A stretch of DNA of 58,604 nt from Ruminococcus sp. (GTDB taxonomy: Bacteria > Bacillota > Clostridia > Oscillospirales > Ruminococcaceae), in contig JAFXDK010000091.1 of NCBI GenBank assembly GCA_017521805.1, positions 1 through 58,604 on the forward strand, given 5' to 3'. A program made the position numbers and the translations under genes. Below, one piece after another: positions 7,520-28,750 of this stretch. Under the pieces are notes generated by a model. The model was not told the origin of the DNA. It saw nothing but the letters and a program-made list of their open reading frames with translations, and ran no database searches. Numbering within the stretch: the stretch's first letter is position 1; every line of letters begins with the position of its first letter.

Positions 7520-7797
7520 TGATTCGGGTAAAAAAACGCCCCGAACCGTAAAATAGGTTCAGGGCGAACATAGTCCGTGTTACCACCTGAATTCAGAGCA
7601 AATGCTCTGCACTCTGCGAAGTCATTCAACCTCTTTCCCTGTAACGTGAGAAACACGTTATGAACTACACAATAAAAATCTTCGCCCATACAGCTCCGAA
7701 GCTACTTCATCATACCTCTCATACTGTTTCGCACCTACCAACAGTTCTCTGAAATCGAAAATATGACTACTACTCTTCATCACAGCCTTTTTAATAT
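7520..7797 (-). promoter_or_regulatory. T-box riboswitch, valine-type, controlling valS
   Basis: On the minus strand the leader contains a stem I region with AGAGAACTG and GGTAGGTGCGAA, a candidate specifier codon GTA (valine; 7705-7703, in GATGAAGTAGCTTC), the T-box antiterminator sequence AGGTGGTAACACGG (7588-7575), and a terminator GCCCTGAACC...GGTTCGGGGCG followed by seven T (7567-7530). Uncharged tRNA-Val is expected to pair with the T-box and allow read-through into valS. The terminator and T-box are clear; the exact specifier position is inferred. Confidence 0.9.
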
Positions 7798-7899: not shown

Positions 7900-10290
7900 T
7901 TACTTGCCTGCCTTGAAAGCATTCTTGAGGAAATTGTACATAAGTGGATTTACACAATTTGCATCATGTCCGCCGCCCTGAATTTCCTGCCAGATATGAG
8001 GCTGTCCGTTTGTTGTAAGGATTTCGTGATACTGCTTTGGGAATGTACCAACAACAGTATCATTTGTGCCGCCTGTAATCATAAGAATATAAGGGTCATA
8101 CTGATGATCCTGAATCTTAAATTCAGAGGGCTGCATATTTCCGGGATGCGACATGAACATATCGCTTCCAGGAGTTACGCCCGGTGCAGGACAAGCCGCG
8201 CCGATATATCCGAAATACTCAGGTCTTGTTATACCAATGTAGAGGGATTCTCTGCCGCCCATTGAGAAGCCGCAGATACCTGTATTCTCTCTGCCTGTTG
8301 CTACAGAGTAATGCTCCTCCATATAAGGCATAAGGCACTCGATGAGATCCTCTCTGAATGCGTCATATTTAGCACATTCCTCAGCAGTAAAGCCGCCGCA
8401 CTGGTCAGAATTCTGGCTTGTGTACATAGCACAGCTTACGAGAATCATTTCCTCTGCCTCGCCTGCCGCCATAAGATTTCCGCCGATAGACTTACAATAG
8501 CCCACCATGTCGTTTTCAGAACCGAAGATTCCGTGATTTACATAAACAACAGGATATTTCTTGCTTGTGCTGTAGTTAGGAGGAAGAATTACAACTGCAT
8601 TCTTATTCTTCTTTGCTATTGATGAATAATAAGAAATCTTTTCTTCCTTACAGCCGTTATTTGAACTGCCTGTAATATTGCTTGGAACATTTGCTGTAAT
8701 GGAATTTCTGATTGAATCCATATAAGCAGCGCCGTCAACATTGCCGCCTGATGGAGCCTTTGTAGTAGTTGTAATAACTTCCGGCTTCTTTGTTGTAGTT
8801 GTAGTTACAGGAGGCTTTGAAGTTGGAACCAGCGGGAACTCATCAATCTGACCGAGAAGGAACTTTGAAAGAAGAACAAGATCATTCACATTAACTGTTC
8901 CGTTTCCGTCAATATCAGCAGCTTTATTTGCTGCAGAACCTGCAAATGTATTTACGACCGCTTTTCTTTCAAGAATAAGGTCAAAAACGTCAATAACACC
9001 GTCATTATCAAGATCGCCGACAACAACGCCATCAGAAGAACCGGGCTTGCCGCTCCCGTTGCCGGAAACCACCCCCTCTAAAGCGCCCTTGGCATTATCC
9101 ATGAAGAAATCTGTTGTAGTATCAACAGTTTCAACATAAAGGTAGCAATTCAGTGCACCCTCGGGAATTGTATAAGCGTCGTTTGAAAGGGTAGTCCATT
9201 CACCATTTTCGCCTTTACCCTCAGCAACTGTAAGATACTGCTCCTCACCGTCAAGTGTACACTGTAAAGTAAGTTTGAAATCCTCGGAAGAAGATTCATT
9301 CTGCATAACATCAACGCCGAAGCTGTAAGTCTCGCCTGCTTTGAAAGCCGCAGGGTCAAGATAAGTAATAGCTCCGTTCCATGATTCAGTTCTGCCTGTT
9401 ACAGCAAGAGTTCCACCGCTTGCCTTGACAGATGCAGAACCTCTGCCGGTCCACTCGCCCTCGCCACTGTCGAATGTATCATTATAATAGTAACCGTTGG
9501 AATCAGGCTCAACAGGCTCTGTGGGCTTGATAACAGCACCCTCATCGCCGTGTCCCTCACCATATGTTACAAGATTTGAATTAACCTTTGCTGAACCGTT
9601 TGACTGATAACCCTCAACATTAAGAGCAACCTCATACATCACACCGCTCATATCCATACCAGCATCTTCCCATGCTTCAAAATGTTTGGAAATACTGATA
9701 CGGCCGCTTATATTTGTCTCAGCGTTGTTGCGTGCAGGATTGTCCTGACGAACACTCCAGTACTGATAGAATGTCTCAGTACCATGAATTGAAGGCTGAT
9801 TTACTCTTTCCGTTCTGTAGATATCGTACTTGTGACCGTTTGCCTCAACAGTACCCAGAGAGTTAGTTGCTCCTGGTGGTCTCCATGATCCCCATGCGTC
9901 TACGATGTAATACTCAACAGTAGGATATTTACCATCACCGTTTTCTGTCCAGCCATAAACGCACATATAAGAATTGCCCTTGGGGAAGTAGTCAACATCG
10001 TAATCAAGGTAAATACCGTCATACTCGTCATATGTCTTTGTGCTTCCCAACTTCTGACCTGTACGGAACAGACAGTTTTCGATACCTGTCCAACTGCAAT
10101 CAAATGAACCGTTGTCACCCACGTTCATACTGACCGTACCCTTACCATCCTGATTCCACAGTTCCCAGTCGTAACCGTCCGTTTTACCTGTTTCCTGATA
10201 AGCGTTTGCTGTAAATGCGGCTGGAATAATTGCTGCACTCAGCATAATGCTGAACAATCCACAGGCAGTTTTTTTAATAAATTTGTTCAT
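7900..10290 (-). CDS. Secreted modular xylanase: GH11 - CBM22 - dockerin - CE1 esterase
   Basis: A 796-residue cellulosomal enzyme. Order: signal peptide (about 1-30); GH11 endo-beta-1,4-xylanase with both glutamates, in VEYYIVDAWG (about E126) and NVEGYQSNG (about E226); CBM22-type module (about 268-405); type I dockerin with two calcium-binding repeats, GDLDNDGVIDVFDL and ADIDGNGTVNVNDL (about 424-485); Thr-rich linker; CE1 esterase with serine in CGFSMGG (about S676) and histidine in GGGHD (about H775). It would cut xylan and remove feruloyl or acetyl side groups while docked on a scaffoldin. An upstream ATG (10308) exists; the ATG at 10290 is preferred because it gives a normal signal peptide MNKFIKKTACG. 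It has its own promoter and follows a CBM-bearing diguanylate cyclase. Confidence 0.93.
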   Translation of the reverse strand: MNKFIKKTACGLFSIMLSAAIIPAAFTANAYQETGKTDGYDWELWNQDGKGTVSMNVGDNGSFDCSWTGIENCLFRTGQKLGSTKTYDEYDGIYLDYDVDYFPKGNSYMCVYGWTENGDGKYPTVEYYIVDAWGSWRPPGATNSLGTVEANGHKYDIYRTERVNQPSIHGTETFYQYWSVRQDNPARNNAETNISGRISISKHFEAWEDAGMDMSGVMYEVALNVEGYQSNGSAKVNSNLVTYGEGHGDEGAVIKPTEPVEPDSNGYYYNDTFDSGEGEWTGRGSASVKASGGTLAVTGRTESWNGAITYLDPAAFKAGETYSFGVDVMQNESSSEDFKLTLQCTLDGEEQYLTVAEGKGENGEWTTLSNDAYTIPEGALNCYLYVETVDTTTDFFMDNAKGALEGVVSGNGSGKPGSSDGVVVGDLDNDGVIDVFDLILERKAVVNTFAGSAANKAADIDGNGTVNVNDLVLLSKFLLGQIDEFPLVPTSKPPVTTTTTKKPEVITTTTKAPSGGNVDGAAYMDSIRNSITANVPSNITGSSNNGCKEEKISYYSSIAKKNKNAVVILPPNYSTSKKYPVVYVNHGIFGSENDMVGYCKSIGGNLMAAGEAEEMILVSCAMYTSQNSDQCGGFTAEECAKYDAFREDLIECLMPYMEEHYSVATGRENTGICGFSMGGRESLYIGITRPEYFGYIGAACPAPGVTPGSDMFMSHPGNMQPSEFKIQDHQYDPYILMITGGTNDTVVGTFPKQYHEILTTNGQPHIWQEIQGGGHDANCVNPLMYNFLKNAFKAGK

Positions 10291-10389
10291 TGTAAACCCC
10301 ACTTTCATAAAGATGATTTTACAATTAATAATCCATATGTTCCCCTATAGACAGCAAAACTGCAAAACAAATTTCACTGTCTTAAATAT

Positions 10390-10418
10390 ATTATATTAAT
10401 AATGTGTAAATATTTCAA
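10390..10418 (-). promoter_or_regulatory. sigma-A promoter of the xylanase gene
   Basis: Minus strand TTGAAA (10418-10413), 17-bp spacer, TATAAT (10395-10390). It leaves a leader of about 90 bases before the ATG. No cre-like or other operator was recognised with confidence. Confidence 0.7.
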
Positions 10419-10488: not shown

Positions 10489-12138
10489 TCAGTCTATAAA
10501 ATCAGCATTTTTCTTGATTTCAACCTTATGATTATACATCGCCTTATCGCTTCGCGCCACAAGAACTTTAATATCAGGTCCGCTTAAATCTACAAATGGG
10601 TCAAAATAAGCCGTACCAACAGCTGCAGAAAAGGGATATCCCTTATAATCCGCGCTTTCTCTGACAAATTCTACGTTTATAGCGTCTGTCATGTCATTGT
10701 CGGTGATACACATAAATTCATCGCCGCCTATGCGATACACCTTTCCCTTTTTGCCTACAACTCTGAGCAAAACAGCGGCACAGCGGATAATAGCCTTATC
10801 TCCGCTGTCATGACCGTAATTGTCATTGATGTACTTTAAGAAATTAACATCACAGGCTGTAACAAAAATTTTTTTGCATCTTTCAATATCTTTTTCCAGC
10901 TCTGCTATATCCTCCTCATAGGTATTGCGGTTATATGCGTTTGTCATAGAGTCGATGCAGGCGCTGCGTATTGCGGCTTTGATTTCCATGTTTTTCTTAA
11001 TAAATTTTCTGATAAGGAAAAACACACACATAAGCAGAATAATACCAACAACTGAAAAAACAGCAATGTTACGCCTGCGTATCTTCAAAGCCGCAGTGCT
11101 GTCAACAATCTTAACATTATCAACATAAAACGAAAGATTTTCGAAATCCTGCTGTTGATTATCGTCATCGGCACGCACATAAAAATACAAATTCGTGGCA
11201 TTGGCAGGAAGCATAAAATCTCCTGAAATCTTTGACCACGTACCATTCTGCAATTCTTTGCTCTTGATAGTAGAATAAATCTCCTCACCGTTCAGATTGT
11301 ATTGCAGCCTCAGTGAAAACGAATGATTTTTTGGACAATTTTTTTCCATATACATAACGTAGGCAGAATAAGTATAATTAACCTTTGGCTGTACACTGGC
11401 AATTCTGACCATAGGCGCATTCCAATGCTCATTCTTGCCTGAAACATAAAGAGAATAATTACCTGAATAGCTAAAGCTGTCAGTTACTTCCATTTGTACT
11501 TCACCTCTTGGAATCCAACCGCCTGTACTACCCTCAAAATCAAATTCCAAAATAGATTCATTTTCTTCGTATACTATTTCTTCTTTTTTCTTTCCATAGC
11601 CATAAACAGAAACATCGTCAATACAAAAATCATCCGTACCGTTTGCAGTTTCAAAATAAAGAATAGCATCATTTACATTTTCAGGAATAACGGCAGAACT
11701 TTCCATAAGCACCCATTTATCTTTTCCAACAACAGTTGTTGACATATTCACATAGGATTCTGTACCTGCCGCATCCACAAATTTCAAGGTCATCATTACA
11801 CTGACTTCCTCAGCTGAATCACTGATTGCATAGGCTCTGAAAAGATATTCCTCGCCAGATGTGATAATATCGGTAATATTCAGTGCAGGACCGCTCCATG
11901 CCTCTTCACGTTTTTGTGTTTTAAGAGCAGAAAAACCACTGTATACCTTATCTTTTGTAATTATTATTTCTGATTTATTGCCAAAGGAAGACCATTCATC
12001 AAATTCTCCAGATTCAAACCCTGTATCAATCAACGCCCTGTATTCATCATCAGCAAAGGCACTTACAGGCGATAAAAGGGCACAAATCAGCAGTGTAATA
12101 ACAATAGATACAAAATAAGAAAATCTGATTTTTTTCAT
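10489..12138 (-). CDS. Membrane diguanylate cyclase with two extracellular CBM22-like modules
   Basis: A 549-residue predicted receptor that makes cyclic di-GMP. Signal peptide (1-29); first CBM4/9/22-like module (about 36-180); second, clearly CBM22-like module (about 196-347) that matches the xylanase CBM22 in spacing (WIPRGE, NEHWNAP, LQYNLNGEE, NGTWSKISGDF, YVDNV); one transmembrane helix (about 358-377); a short cytoplasmic helix; then a GGDEF domain with DSMTNAYNR, DVNFLKYINDNYGHDSGD, RIGGDEF (471-475) and SDKAMYNHK. The active-site residues are intact, so it is probably active. The inhibitory RxxD site is replaced by GKKG, so product feedback is probably lost. The start has a GGAGGG site. 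It lies upstream of, and on the same strand as, the xylanase gene. Confidence 0.9.
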   Translation of the reverse strand: MKKIRFSYFVSIVITLLICALLSPVSAFADDEYRALIDTGFESGEFDEWSSFGNKSEIIITKDKVYSGFSALKTQKREEAWSGPALNITDIITSGEEYLFRAYAISDSAEEVSVMMTLKFVDAAGTESYVNMSTTVVGKDKWVLMESSAVIPENVNDAILYFETANGTDDFCIDDVSVYGYGKKKEEIVYEENESILEFDFEGSTGGWIPRGEVQMEVTDSFSYSGNYSLYVSGKNEHWNAPMVRIASVQPKVNYTYSAYVMYMEKNCPKNHSFSLRLQYNLNGEEIYSTIKSKELQNGTWSKISGDFMLPANATNLYFYVRADDDNQQQDFENLSFYVDNVKIVDSTAALKIRRRNIAVFSVVGIILLMCVFFLIRKFIKKNMEIKAAIRSACIDSMTNAYNRNTYEEDIAELEKDIERCKKIFVTACDVNFLKYINDNYGHDSGDKAIIRCAAVLLRVVGKKGKVYRIGGDEFMCITDNDMTDAINVEFVRESADYKGYPFSAAVGTAYFDPFVDLSGPDIKVLVARSDKAMYNHKVEIKKNADFID

Positions 12139-12307
12139 AATGTCCCTCCTCGTGCAAGTAAAAAAACCTACTTTATTTTACATATATATTATAGCATTTT
12201 TTCATAAATTTTTCTATTCTTATAATACAAAAACTTTCAAGAATGCTTTTGTGCAATTTGTATAATTTGATACTGTTTTTTAGAAATTATGAAAAGATTA
12301 TTACAAA

Positions 12308-12345
12308 AAGTAAAAATCCGCGAGATTTTACCCACGGATTTTTAT
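12308..12345 (-). terminator. Terminator after the SSS symporter gene
   Basis: Arms AAAATCCGCG and CACGGATTTTT (plus-strand reading) form a hairpin with T-runs on both sides, between the symporter stop and the diguanylate cyclase promoter region. Confidence 0.75.
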
Positions 12346-12359
12346 TATCTGTTAAACTT

Positions 12360-13952
12360 TTAGAGGTGATCTTTATTAAGACTATCAAAAGCCTCAGCAA
12401 CCACCTTTTCGTCAGGAGCCTTCGTGAAACTGCTAACTATAGGTACTACAATAAGAGACACAATCATAGCAAATGCGCCCGCATTTACAGGTGAAAGAAG
12501 ATTCAAAGGACAGTTAAGGTCAATAACCGCCTGCTTCAATCCGTCAAATGCAGAAATATTCATGCTGAATAAAATCATGTGTCCCACTGTAATTCCAAGG
12601 CCTGTAATAAAGCTTGCAATTACAGACGCAATTGAAGATTTTTTCATAAACAGACCATAGAGGAAAGGTCCGAGGAATGCACCTGATAATGCACCCCATG
12701 AATATGACATAAGAGTTGAAATGGAAGCGTTTTTGTTGCAGGCAATAATTACGGATATTACAAGGAATATAGCAATGAATATACGAATGCAGAGCATCTG
12801 CTTCTTGTCGTCGAAATTCTTAATTCTTGGCTTGATAAGGTCATTTGTAAGAGTTGAACTTGAAGTAAGTACAAGTGATGAAAGAGTTGAGAGTGACGCT
12901 GAAAGAACAAGCACAACCACAAGTCCTATAAGCATATTCGGGAGCGCCTGATGTATAAGAGCAGGTACCATTGTATCATATACGGGCTTGCCGTTTACAA
13001 CTTCAATAAGAGTTCTGTCCGTTACAGTCGGGTCAGTTGTACAGTAAAGACGTACAAATCCGCCCATAAAGTAAGAACCGCCTGCAACTACAAGAGCAAA
13101 TAATGTGGAGATAACTGCTCCCTTTTTAATAGCGTCCTCATCCTTGATAGCATAGAATTTCTGCACCATCTGAGGAAGTCCCCATGTTCCGAGAGATGTG
13201 AGTATTACAACTCCAAGAAGATTGAAAGGATCAGGTCCAAAAAGTGAGCCGAGGGAATTTTCAGGAGTATTTTTATCTGATATAGCGTTAAGTGATTCAA
13301 TTGCCATTGAAAGACCATCTTTTTTCTGTACAGTAAGAGTTACAACAGTTGCAATACCAATAAGCATAATAATTCCCTGTATAAAGTCATTTATAGCTGT
13401 TGCCTTATATCCTCCGAGAATTACATAAATAGCGGAAAGTACTGCCATAAGGATTATAATAATTGTACCACCGTTTTCCCCAAGGTTAAATACCATTCCG
13501 AAAAGTCTTGAAAGACCGTTATAAACGGAAGCGGTGTAGGGAATAAGGAACACAAATACTATAAGGGATGTTATTGTTTTAAGCATATCAGAATCAAATC
13601 TTTTACCGAAGAATTCAGGCATAGTCTTTGCTCTGAGCTGTTTCGTCATAAGTCTCGTTCTTCGTCCTATGAGGAAAAAGGGAATCAGGCTTCCGATTAT
13701 AGCATTTCCTATACCTACCCATGCTGCAGATACGCCATAGCTCCAGCCGAACTGTCCGGCATAGCCAATAAACACCACGGCAGAGAAATATGTAGTACCA
13801 TAAGAAAATGCAGTCAGCCACGAGCCTACATTACGTCCGCCCAGCATAAAATCCTTTGCTGATTTTGTTTTTCCTGAGGTGTAAAAACCTATACCAATCA
13901 TTACAGCAACATAAATTGCAAGTATTATAAAGGTAGCAGTTTTTGAACTCAT
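12360..13952 (-). CDS. Sodium:solute symporter (SSS family)
   Basis: A 530-residue inner-membrane transporter with about 13 hydrophobic segments that couples sodium entry to solute uptake. Family features: TSGKTKSAKDFMLGGRNVGSW early on, FSYGTTYFSAVVFIGYAGQFGWSYG in the second helix region, RTRLMTKQLRAKTMPEFFGKRF, and LSASLSTLSSLVLTSSSTLTNDL in the eighth helix, where sodium-ligating serines sit in this family. It resembles the PutP/PanF branch, but the solute (proline, pantothenate, sugar or other) cannot be told. The frame extends upstream to 14075; the ATG at 13952 is preferred because an AAAGG site precedes it and the product then starts at the first membrane helix. Confidence 0.92.
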   Translation of the reverse strand: MSSKTATFIILAIYVAVMIGIGFYTSGKTKSAKDFMLGGRNVGSWLTAFSYGTTYFSAVVFIGYAGQFGWSYGVSAAWVGIGNAIIGSLIPFFLIGRRTRLMTKQLRAKTMPEFFGKRFDSDMLKTITSLIVFVFLIPYTASVYNGLSRLFGMVFNLGENGGTIIIILMAVLSAIYVILGGYKATAINDFIQGIIMLIGIATVVTLTVQKKDGLSMAIESLNAISDKNTPENSLGSLFGPDPFNLLGVVILTSLGTWGLPQMVQKFYAIKDEDAIKKGAVISTLFALVVAGGSYFMGGFVRLYCTTDPTVTDRTLIEVVNGKPVYDTMVPALIHQALPNMLIGLVVVLVLSASLSTLSSLVLTSSSTLTNDLIKPRIKNFDDKKQMLCIRIFIAIFLVISVIIACNKNASISTLMSYSWGALSGAFLGPFLYGLFMKKSSIASVIASFITGLGITVGHMILFSMNISAFDGLKQAVIDLNCPLNLLSPVNAGAFAMIVSLIVVPIVSSFTKAPDEKVVAEAFDSLNKDHL

Positions 13953-14024
13953 ACAATCACAACCTTTCAGATATGTAATACTTAAAAGCTTAAAAGCTTT
14001 AAACCAATAAAGTGTTCGTATATT

Positions 14025-14053
14025 AATATAGCACATTTTGTCGGAAATGTCAA
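14025..14053 (-). promoter_or_regulatory. sigma-A promoter of the symporter gene
   Basis: Minus strand TTGACA (14053-14048), 17-bp spacer, TATATT (14030-14025). It is divergent from, and 22 bp away from, the ECF operon promoter. Confidence 0.75.
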
Positions 14054-14074
14054 GGGGTTTTAGAGAAAAAATCA

Positions 14075-14103
14075 TTGAATTATTTCGAATTATGTGCTAT
14101 AAT
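14075..14103 (+). promoter_or_regulatory. Housekeeping-type promoter of the ECF sigma operon
   Basis: TTGAAT (14075-14080), 17-bp spacer, TATAAT (14098-14103). The hexamers are sigma-A-like, so no sign of an autoregulatory ECF promoter was seen. Confidence 0.7.
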
Positions 14104-25796: not shown

Positions 25797-25904
25797 TTTA
25801 ATAAAACCGCAATTTTTGGTCAGAAAATAACTCTATTTGATTTGACAATATTTCATATATCACCTTTATATTGTTTGTTATCTCAAAAATTAACAAATTA
25901 TCCC

Positions 25905-25933
25905 TTGAAATTCAGAAAAATATATGGTATAAT
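25905..25933 (+). promoter_or_regulatory. sigma-A promoter of the CotH gene
   Basis: TTGAAA (25905-25910), 17-bp spacer, TATAAT (25928-25933), 34 bases before the chosen ATG. This supports the ATG at 25967 and rules out the longer reading frame that starts inside the promoter. Confidence 0.8.
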
Positions 25934-25966
25934 GTACATATCAACTATGAAAGGATGTCGATTCCC

Positions 25967-28750
25967 ATGGCTTCAAAAAGGTTAATTTCTGCTGTTACGG
26001 CTCTTGTTTCAGCTTGTACAGCTCTTTCACCTGCTCTGCCTGCGGTAATTGCCGCAGATGCGCAGAATACTCTTAACGGCGATATCAACGGCGATTCTGC
26101 ACTTGATTCCAAGGATTTACAGCTTCTGAACAGCTATCTCTTAGGCGGCGGCAGTCTCACTTCCGAACAGGGAAAAAATGCCGATTTAAACAGCGATAAT
26201 ATACTTGACGTTTACGATATGATTCTGCTGAGAGGTTTGTTCAAAAGTACGGCTTATGACGGACTTTTTATAAATGAAGTCTGCTCCTCGGCTAAGAATT
26301 CTGTAACCGATGCCTCCGGCGCTTCTCCCGACTGGGTTGAGATTTACAACAAATCTGATAATAATATTGATTTAAGCGGAGTTGGTGTTTCCGACGGCAA
26401 AAAAAATAAATTCAAGTTCACTTTCCCACAGGGGACAATAATCAACGATGACAGCTATATTCTCGTTTACTGCGATGACGCTGTTACAGAAGCAGAGGGA
26501 GAATATCATGCAGCTTTCAAGCTCAGCGCAACAGGCGAAACGGTATACCTGACAGCTCCCGACGGCAGTGAAATTGATGCTGTTGAAGTTCCCGAGCTTG
26601 ATACCGATATTTCCTACGGCCGATACAAAGACGGTGCAGATTCATTTAAATATCTATCCTGTACAGCAGGAAAATCCAACAACGATGCAACCGATATGGA
26701 CGTTGTTGAAAAACCTGTATTCTCCGAAATCGGCGGATTTTACGACAGCGAATTCCAGCTTACTCTTGCTGATAACAACGGCAATGAGATATACTATACA
26801 ACCGACGGCAGTGACCCGCGTACATCAGATACTGCAAAGCTTTACAGCGAAAGTATCCGTATCTACAACAATACAAATGAGCAGAATAAATACAGTTCAC
26901 TGAGGGATATTACTCTTGTCGAGTATACACCTACTTATAAAAATGTTGAAAAGGGTATTGTTATCCGTGCAGCTTCTAAAAATCCTGACGGAAAATTCAG
27001 CGAGGTTGAGCATAACAGCTACTTTGTTGGAAAAACTGCCTCATACTTCAAGGATATGAAAGTCATTTCCATGGCTACCGACAGCGATTATCTCTTTGAC
27101 AAGGACAACGGCGCATATATGGTCGGCAAAACTTACTACGAGTGGCGTAACAGTTCTGAATATAAAGAATATGACCCTGCTGATACAAGAAATCCCACAA
27201 ATTACAATAAGGACGGCAGAGAATCAGAATTCCCTGTATCAATTCAGGTAATTGAAAATGGCGAGGCTGTTTACAATGCTGACCTCGGTGCTAAAATTTC
27301 GGGCAACTGGACACGCTCCAATCCACAGAAGAGTTTCAGACTTGTTGCTCGCAGCGAGTACGGCGATTCATCAATAAAACATCCTCTATTCGATGAATTG
27401 ACAGACATAAACGGAAAAGTTATTGACCGTTTTGATAAGGTAACTTTATGGAATGGCGGTAATGATTGCCAATATCTCCATTTCAGAGATGCTCTCATAC
27501 AGGACATTGCAGGAGACAGAAACGTTGAAACTATGGGCAGTGAACCATGTCTGCTGTTCATTGACGGCGAATTCTGGGGCTTCTATATGCTTCGTGAACG
27601 CGTCGATGCAGACCACCTTGAAGCACATTTCGGACTTGATAAGGACGATGTGGCTGTAATCAAAAATGGCAGTCTTGACGACGGTCTTGACTCTGACCTT
27701 GAAGAATTCAAGCAGTTCTGCGTATGGGCAATAAGCACTAATATGGCTAATCCGATTAATTATGAAAAATTCTGTGATACAGTTGATGTACAGAGCTTTA
27801 TGGACTATATGGCTATAGAAACATACATCAACAACAACGACTGGCAAAGCTCAGGTGTAAACAACTGGCAGGTATGGCGTTCAAAGACTGTTCACAGCAA
27901 TATCCCCGAAGCTAATGGCAAATGGCGCTTTATTCTTTATGATACTGATATTTCAGCAGGTCTTTACGGCGGCGAAAAGAATGTTGCAAATTACGATTCC
28001 CTTGGAAATAACGGACCAAAATCACAATATTACAACTTCTCCGCAATTCTGAAAAATCTTATCAGAAACGATGAATTCCGCCAGCAGTTCTATGATAATT
28101 ACATTGAAATAATTGATACAACATTTGACAAAACAGCAGTAAACGCTAAAATTACAGAATATGTTAATGCTTATGAAACAGCTACAAAAGATACTCTGAA
28201 TCGCTTCAATATTGGTTGGGCAGCAAACAACTATCAGAAGGAAGTTCAGCGTATCAAGGACTTCTTCAATGACCGTCCCGACTACGCTAAACGTTATCTT
28301 GACAAATACTGCGATGAGTCCAAGATAGATAAAGAAAACAATCTTTCAACCACTAATTTCTGGTCATACTACGGCAAGGGTGAATTTTCATCAAATCCGG
28401 CTGAAAACTCCTTCACTGTAAAGGTCAATACAGCTGAGGATAAATCATGGAATATACAATCTCAGGCTAAAAATGTGCTTCTTGAACCGGGTAAAACATA
28501 CGAGCTTTCCTTCAAAGCTTCATGCACAACTCCATGTGAAATCTCTCTTGGCTTCAACCACAACGTAGACGGTTCATATCCAAACTGCTGGAGTGACAAA
28601 GCTGAACTCACTCAGCAGCTTCAGGAATACACATACACATTTACAGTCAAGGAAGAAATTGCATACCACGACTGGCAGCTTTACTTCAATTACGCATTAA
28701 CGGCAGGTACATACAAAATTGTAAATCCAAGACTTGTAGAAGTGAAATAA
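25967..28750 (+). CDS. Secreted dockerin - LTD - CotH-kinase-like protein with C-terminal carbohydrate-binding-like module
   Basis: A 927-residue exported protein. Signal peptide (about 1-30); an N-terminal dockerin with two repeats, NGDINGDSALDSKDL and ADLNSDNILDVYDM (about 36-92); a lamin-tail-like domain with FINEVCSSAKN and DWVEIYNKSDNNIDLSG (about 100-205); a chitobiase-C-like beta domain with IYYTTDGSDPRTSD; a CotH domain (about 360-760) with GNWTRSNPQKSFRL, LHFRDALIQDI, GFYMLRERVD and WRFILYDTD; and a beta-rich module (about 785-920) resembling CBM4/9. CotH proteins are spore-coat kinases in Bacillus; dockerin-linked CotH proteins occur in ruminococcal cellulosomes, role unknown. The start is set by the promoter and a GAAAGGA site. 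Confidence 0.9.
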   Translation: MASKRLISAVTALVSACTALSPALPAVIAADAQNTLNGDINGDSALDSKDLQLLNSYLLGGGSLTSEQGKNADLNSDNILDVYDMILLRGLFKSTAYDGLFINEVCSSAKNSVTDASGASPDWVEIYNKSDNNIDLSGVGVSDGKKNKFKFTFPQGTIINDDSYILVYCDDAVTEAEGEYHAAFKLSATGETVYLTAPDGSEIDAVEVPELDTDISYGRYKDGADSFKYLSCTAGKSNNDATDMDVVEKPVFSEIGGFYDSEFQLTLADNNGNEIYYTTDGSDPRTSDTAKLYSESIRIYNNTNEQNKYSSLRDITLVEYTPTYKNVEKGIVIRAASKNPDGKFSEVEHNSYFVGKTASYFKDMKVISMATDSDYLFDKDNGAYMVGKTYYEWRNSSEYKEYDPADTRNPTNYNKDGRESEFPVSIQVIENGEAVYNADLGAKISGNWTRSNPQKSFRLVARSEYGDSSIKHPLFDELTDINGKVIDRFDKVTLWNGGNDCQYLHFRDALIQDIAGDRNVETMGSEPCLLFIDGEFWGFYMLRERVDADHLEAHFGLDKDDVAVIKNGSLDDGLDSDLEEFKQFCVWAISTNMANPINYEKFCDTVDVQSFMDYMAIETYINNNDWQSSGVNNWQVWRSKTVHSNIPEANGKWRFILYDTDISAGLYGGEKNVANYDSLGNNGPKSQYYNFSAILKNLIRNDEFRQQFYDNYIEIIDTTFDKTAVNAKITEYVNAYETATKDTLNRFNIGWAANNYQKEVQRIKDFFNDRPDYAKRYLDKYCDESKIDKENNLSTTNFWSYYGKGEFSSNPAENSFTVKVNTAEDKSWNIQSQAKNVLLEPGKTYELSFKASCTTPCEISLGFNHNVDGSYPNCWSDKAELTQQLQEYTYTFTVKEEIAYHDWQLYFNYALTAGTYKIVNPRLVEVK

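Follow-up and report, generated by a model that had tools for sequence, protein, structure and literature searches.

On the minus strand of the window (the whole analysed stretch of 58,604 nucleotides from a Ruminococcus sp. genome), one open reading frame encodes a predicted receptor cyclase in which a signal peptide, two CBM22 modules, a single membrane helix and a GGDEF domain follow one another; a gene for a composite xylanase and a gene for a symporter flank it. The features of the locus are these:

7900 to 10308, minus strand: GH11-CBM22-dockerin-esterase protein, CBM22 ligand positions R-W-Y-Y-E (Pfam)
10390 to 10418, minus strand: promoter-like site before the xylanase gene, 11 of 12 (consensus match)
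10489 to 12138, minus strand: CBM22-CBM22-TM-GGDEF receptor cyclase, 549 amino acids and stop (ORF, Pfam, PDB match)
10516 to 10959, minus strand: receptor GGDEF domain, residues 394-541, RIGGDEF intact, I-site lost (Pfam and residue check)
10993 to 11076, minus strand: receptor transmembrane helix, residues 355-382 (hydropathy)
11101 to 11559, minus strand: receptor CBM22 module 2 (membrane-proximal), residues 194-346, ligand positions R-W-Y-Y-R (CBM_4_9 match at 11167-11559)
11599 to 12033, minus strand: receptor CBM22 module 1 (membrane-distal), residues 36-180, ligand positions F-W-Y-Y-E (CBM_4_9 match at 11644-12027)
12049 to 12138, minus strand: receptor signal peptide, residues about 1-30 (hydropathy 3-31; AFA-DD junction by eye)
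12188 to 12216, minus strand: promoter-like site before the receptor gene, 10 of 12 (consensus match only)
12311 to 12344, minus strand: terminator-like site between the symporter and receptor genes (site scan)
12360 to 14075, minus strand: sodium:solute symporter family protein (Pfam)

ORF analysis, Pfam, hydropathy and a residue check uphold the initial annotation in its reading frame, signal peptide, two outside modules, single helix and intact GGDEF domain devoid of RxxD. The profile searches it had proposed, for CBM22 and GGDEF, returned both: Pfam detects two CBM_4_9 stretches (E 4e-40 for the protein) and one GGDEF domain (E 6e-20), the latter scoring 72.1 bits for PF00990 (cut-off 23.8) and 68.2 for TIGR00254 (cut-off 37.4). 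The modules had been called "CBM4/9/22-like"; their number stands, and their assignment is narrowed to CBM22, since the match of residues 36-346 to the CBM22-1/CBM22-2 tandem of Paenibacillus Xyn10C (4xup, E 1.3e-28) spans both of them. Module 1 also matches CBM22-2 of Clostridium thermocellum Xyn10B (1dyo, E 3.7e-13). The signal-peptide-like start, taken together with the single helix, implies that the tandem should face outward and the GGDEF domain inward. About a dozen residues separate the helix from the GGDEF domain, and a Pfam scan of the protein found neither HAMP nor PAS between the two.

The downstream gene, previously taken for a CBM22 xylanase, does encode a GH11 xylanase with a CBM22 module, to which dockerin and esterase domains must be added. 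As had been noted by eye, module 2 aligns with this neighbouring CBM22 (28% identity, E 3e-16, in an alignment that slightly overshoots the module), and module 1 aligns with it too (26%, E 2e-8); judged by these alignments, the likeness of the receptor modules to it is far above chance. Each of the two genes has a promoter-like site of its own and a terminator-like site follows the symporter gene, so that a receptor-xylanase operon is not required; the scan of the region listed no terminator-like site between receptor and xylanase, and read-through is therefore possible. Promoter-like sites in the region numbered 33, against 20.5 (sd 4.3) expected, and terminator-like sites 10, against 5.0 expected. 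Elsewhere in the window, a T-box leader (7557-7792, minus strand, 139.7 bits) lies 5' of a valyl-tRNA synthetase gene, and positions 25871-28750 (plus strand) encode dockerin, lamin-tail, CotH kinase and CBM_4_9 domains, as of a CotH-type kinase with a dockerin.

Distribution and arrangement of the receptor family

The window genome (2.54 Mb in 112 contigs, 91% complete) contains 16 GGDEF matches, 15 of them above the Pfam cut-off. A genome search for other CBM-GGDEF genes had been suggested by the initial annotation; one other of these GGDEF proteins, on C54, is a paralogue of identical architecture and 37% identity to the window receptor. In the 19 kb examined, its neighbours are a PocR-domain gene and a GGDEF-EAL gene, both divergent from it (L017:11861-14669), and no xylanase; a GGDEF-EAL gene of similar kind accompanies the paralogue of G043, G084 and G093, the last two of which have PocR-like genes there too. 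Several GGDEF proteins of the window genome (L001-L004, L015, L016) resemble, by eye, LacI-type sugar-binding fusions, two of them with an AraC-like end.

Full-length homologues occur in 9 of the 100 genomes of the genus sample, the window genome counted, and eight of these nine carriers possess the paralogue as well. The copy in G093 (L058:6695-8368) is broken by a stop, a TGA, and is described in two pieces; paralogue and orthologue stand in tandem in G049, G064 and G065. Among the 297 genomes of the family sample 13 pass E 1e-60, five with full-length receptors (the window genome and four of the genus g96) and eight over the CBM22 tandem alone; no full-length receptor beyond that of the window genome appeared in the order (394) or phylum (398) samples, and one additional genome of the order sample matches over the tandem only, all three samples being subsets of larger groups in which small genera such as g96 can be missed. 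In the related genus g96 itself, 10 of 11 genomes have receptors, mostly as arrays, the exception (G1151) being 96% complete. A profile search of genome contigs with a two-row alignment added three Pseudomonas matches, to the GGDEF part only, and a relative, L059, in Ruminococcus sp. RGIG8566 (a MAG), which may be the same genome as G074 and is kept out of the counts. The rarity earlier claimed for CBM modules as sensors of diguanylate cyclases fits these samples as far as this receptor family, the one searched for, is concerned.

The examined loci, to which the receptor and module counts given here refer, hold 51 GGDEF-bearing receptors, 34 in g96 and 17 in the window's genus (one broken gene, in G093, and one contig-cut gene, in G090, included), together with seven relatives that have the same outside part and helix and no cyclase (L083:8731-10485, L084:6290-7963, L085:10072-11808, L138:9914-11752, L139:4996-6870, L141:8298-9863 and L145:1-1739). 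Six of these seven end in a conserved tail, IETFSY[DE] ... PF[DE]GF, perhaps a docking peptide, and the seventh leaves its contig. G338 and G1149 each contain eight consecutive receptor genes (L086:1781-16145 and L142:1741-16023), encoding one, two or three CBM22 modules, with three degenerate cyclase domains in each array. A LacI-type regulator gene adjoins the receptor genes in nine g96 loci, at L083:5518-6645 and in eight like loci, the copies being 67-97% identical to that of L083; the three g96 loci that do not show it are contigs of 4-5 kb.

The initial annotation had also drawn on the adjacency of the xylanase, an argument that proves weak. A GH11 xylanase adjoins the receptor in three of the nine genomes (window, G043, G084), and a rhamnogalacturonan-lyase-like gene lies near it in G043, G074, G084 and G093, a call made from a PF21348 match in G074 and by eye, from a similar start, in the other three. 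Neither gene was recognised around the receptors of G049, G064 and G065, and the receptor contig of G090 is 3 kb long. The five CAZyme-linked genomes (three with the xylanase, two with another CAZyme) fall into one distal-module group (support 94), so that the link between receptor and CAZyme may be a single event, and the neighbouring CBM22 is not the nearest relative of the receptor modules. Between the window receptor and its G043 counterpart, protein identity is 65%, with synonymous sites near saturation, and the flanking genes are about 90% identical; the higher divergence of the receptor than of the flanking 7900-10308 and 12360-14075 may point to gene exchange.

Ligand positions and ancestry of the CBM22 modules

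The ligand residues of C. thermocellum CBM22-2, which we take to be R25, W53, Y103, Y136 and E138, are the five that Xie et al. reportedly described in 2001. A check against 1dyo numbering gave R, W, Y, Y and E at these positions, and the excerpted text of a paper that leaves them unnamed ascribes the identification of five CBM22 ligand residues to mutagenesis (PMC6556019). Each module of the window receptor keeps four of the five, as F-W-Y-Y-E in module 1 and R-W-Y-Y-R in module 2. Across the 51 multi-module receptors (44 with a cyclase and seven without), the proximal modules of 41, from two genera, retain RWYY and those of 10 do not, with 36 reading exactly R-W-Y-Y-Q; the distal-most modules have Arg25 in none of the 51 and Glu138 in 47, position 25 being F, L, M, I, V, N or T. 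In the window's genus, position 138 of the proximal module is never Glu but Q, R or G (Arg in the window receptor). Enzyme-type modules offer a yardstick: among 53 distinct ones (56 readings less three repeats or pieces), drawn, like the enzyme modules of the trees below, from the top matches of receptor searches or the CBM_4_9 matches of the window genome and hence no random sample, 45 have Arg25, 32 have E at position 138 and 19 have Q there. Ten CBM22-CBM22 tandem proteins from other genomes of the genus (two were domain-scanned, and both are GH10) read RWYYE and then RWYYQ, which makes Gln138 normal for a second module. Position 25 of module 1 in seven tandem proteins of other genera is W (three), V (two), H (one) or R (one); in these alignments, then, loss of Arg25 in every distal-most module is a mark of the receptors without being exclusive to them. 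The earlier proposal that a polysaccharide sensor outside the cell is joined to a cyclase inside it thereby gains from the proximal modules and, as described below, from the catalytic residues; the case for xylan as the ligand is weaker at the distal position.

In a tree of 167 modules, from which modules of fewer than 90 residues were excluded, the 51 proximal modules of the receptors form one group (support 98); row L058_7859 of that tree, labelled a single enzyme module, comes in fact from the broken receptor of G093, where it is the distal module. A subset tree of 78 rows took, out of the 106 receptor modules, 12 proximal and 12 distal ones from 12 receptors; seven rows that were odd or had long branches, Paenibacillus CBM22-2 being one of them, were omitted. 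In it the proximal modules group with module 2 of GH10-type tandems and two single modules (support 96). A module of a GH16 enzyme also belongs to the group that holds the proximal modules and module 2 of GH10 enzymes. A clade of distal modules with tandem module 1 is compatible with the data (p 0.64), and one of proximal with distal modules is not rejected (p 0.26). From these trees, kinship with the GH10-type tandem is supported for the proximal half of the ectodomain; for the distal half the data are no more than compatible with it. Another origin considered was that the ectodomain had been captured from the neighbouring GH11 xylanase; a clade joining that enzyme's CBM22 with the proximal modules is weakly rejected by the AU test (p 0.029), and with the distal modules the result is borderline (p 0.052).

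We consider that the proximal module most likely binds a xylan-type chain, with mixed-linkage beta-glucan as the next candidate, and that the altered distal module would add specificity or geometry. An alternative that deserves attention, unlikely as it seems to us, is that the CBM22-derived tandem has come to bind some protein, peptide or partner receptor instead, leaving the cyclase under the control of protein contact and not of fibre. Loss of Arg25 from all the distal-most modules would agree with such a change of ligand, as would the cyclase-less and cyclase-degenerate receptors that adjoin intact ones in g96, and a precedent exists in the CBM22-like tandem modules of ANX1/2, which, in the excerpted account, bound no carbohydrate tested (PMC6038381); the retention of RWYY in most proximal modules, residue for residue as in the enzymes, argues against it. 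Also at odds with a xylan ligand, and in our judgement distinctly improbable, would be a receptor for another polysaccharide, be it mixed-linkage beta-glucan or a surface polysaccharide of the cell itself or of its neighbours. The GH16 module within the proximal group is in line with this, and the varied residues at distal position 25 are as expected if ligands differ, yet the company kept by CBM22 in the window genome (19 CBM_4_9 matches) favours the xylan-type chain: five of six CBM22 enzyme-type proteins scanned have GH10, GH11, GH43, GH30 or esterase domains, the sixth being GDSL-type, and five of the six bear dockerins.

The cyclase domain and candidate effectors

The receptor's GGDEF domain has all of its catalytic positions in place, D430, N438, D447, the GGDEF motif at 471-475 (with E474) and K538, of which D430, N438, D447, E474 and K538 are presumably the equivalents of the PleD catalytic residues. 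The RxxD positions read G462 and G465, leaving no RxxD site, and by analogy with PleD the cyclase is predicted to be active and not inhibited by its product at the I-site. This pattern extends to the family: D430, N438, D447 and GGDEF are intact in 45 of the 51 cyclase domains, the six without the full set belonging to single-module receptors of the G338 and G1149 arrays, and RxxD is found in none of the 51 (one RxxD position is a gap in two), which fits a cyclase free of product inhibition at that site. D396 is invariant across 20 aligned members. Compared with its four nearest orthologues, the receptor is best conserved in its GGDEF domain (70-84%, against 60-72% for the modules); whole-receptor dN/dS is 0.13-0.15 where computable, a ratio that carries no weight with synonymous change near saturation. 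A surface tether, in which the CBM22 part anchors the cell to fibre and the GGDEF domain is secondary, might account for the seven cyclase-less relatives, but is hardly credible beside this degree of conservation and the 45 intact catalytic sets.

In GGDEF trees, which are quick trees with SH-aLRT support only, the window type groups with g96 members (support 95) and so does the paralogue type (89); the two receptor types thus seem older than the split between the genera. The branch that would unite the receptor GGDEF domains as of one origin, apart from 11 other GGDEF domains, has support 0.

For PilZ, one of the effectors that the initial annotation had suggested looking for, the window genome gave no match, with five controls positive. 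No c-di-GMP riboswitch reached the gathering score in the window, and none was found in the genome, where no control was positive and one search scored 150 of 265 candidates, so that absence is not established there. The genome does contain one MshEN domain, on a PilB-like protein of a type IV pilus locus. Its first motif fits the MshEN c-di-GMP motif consensus at its 24 given residues, position 2 being Ile instead of Leu (the excerpted source prints the consensus with one extra x between the last two leucines; PMC11731258), and its second copy is partial. On the strength of this motif, the MshEN-type PilB is a candidate c-di-GMP effector of the receptor. The pilus locus (G000:C59, L146:265-16888) also contains pilin-like, PilT-like, PilM-like and PilC-like genes, named by eye. 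Type IV pili of R. albus bind cellulose, according to the excerpted report (PMC13234629).

A proposed fibre receptor and its known counterparts

What was noticed in the window holds true and belongs to a conserved family of receptors. We think it somewhat probable that the protein is a single-pass receptor diguanylate cyclase that binds a xylan-type chain and makes c-di-GMP, with PilB as a candidate effector. Anatomy, catalytic and ligand residue conservation, family and proximal-module kinship are established by sequence comparison, and it is from these that we infer the ligand, the cyclase activity, the sign of the response and the effector. The outside part would be a CBM22-CBM22 tandem like those found ahead of GH10 xylanase domains, joined by one helix and a short linker straight onto the GGDEF domain. 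Binding of an immobile polymer would change the pairing or spacing of receptors and with it the activity of the cyclase; c-di-GMP would presumably rise close to fibre, and the MshEN-type PilB of the type IV pilus locus could respond to it, tying fibre contact to adhesion.

A broader conjecture, which we rate as quite doubtful, is that a whole repertoire of fibre receptors arose when a GH10-type tandem moved onto a cyclase and was then multiplied by duplication, giving arrays of as many as eight receptors that have one to three modules and, in some members, a degenerate cyclase or none. Lying beside a conserved LacI-type regulator, such a repertoire would turn plant cell-wall composition into a combinatorial c-di-GMP signal, the cyclase-poor members serving as modulating partners.

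To our knowledge, the sensing of insoluble polymer by fibre digesters of gut and rumen, before soluble sugars appear, is little understood outside the RsgI system. Receptors of the kind proposed here may enable a fibre-digesting gut bacterium to feel plant fibre directly, and the union of an enzyme-type CBM22 tandem with a cyclase opens the question to experiment on a single soluble ectodomain and a single membrane protein. In the excerpted literature linking CBM or carbohydrate binding with GGDEF, we recognised no CBM-bearing diguanylate cyclase. The main text of a 2022 census of c-di-GMP sensory domains, as excerpted, does not contain the term "CBM", and its possibly carbohydrate-binding outside domains are 7TMR-DISMED2, by prediction, and periplasmic-binding-protein domains, for sugars among other ligands (PMC8846402). 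The receptor would thus give c-di-GMP signalling a polymer-ligand kind not found in the excerpted census. 7TMR-DISM receptors have, as their name says, seven membrane helices, whereas hydropathy gives the present protein one besides the signal peptide. They resemble it in a predicted sensing of carbohydrate by a jelly-roll domain and in their link to c-di-GMP enzymes, as the census excerpt describes them (PMC8846402), and they differ in the outside domain, which in our receptor consists of true CBM22 modules.

The RsgI anti-sigma factors of Clostridium thermocellum sense polysaccharides through CBM3, CBM42, PA14 or GH10 sensors and, like the receptor, are single-pass membrane proteins whose outside CBM or enzyme-type modules read plant polysaccharide; unlike it, they release a sigma factor by proteolysis and have a cytoplasmic N-terminus, so that the order of parts is reversed (PMC12203970, in excerpt). 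Pfam found no RsgI_N domain in the receptor protein, nor any PF12791 match in the genome, with a B. subtilis control positive. The tandem-malectin CrRLK1L kinases of plants, ANX1/2, likewise place two CBM22-like jelly rolls, one helix and an inside enzyme in series, but their output is a kinase, their sugar-binding surfaces are absent and peptide ligands have been proposed, so that the likeness is one of layout only (excerpt of PMC6038381). Counterparts by homology are the xylanase tandems, Paenibacillus Xyn10C (4xup) and C. thermocellum Xyn10B (1dyo), which are homologous to the outside part, in the same order and with ligand residues largely kept; where these enzymes have a xylanase domain the receptor has a helix and a GGDEF domain, and its distal module has lost Arg25.
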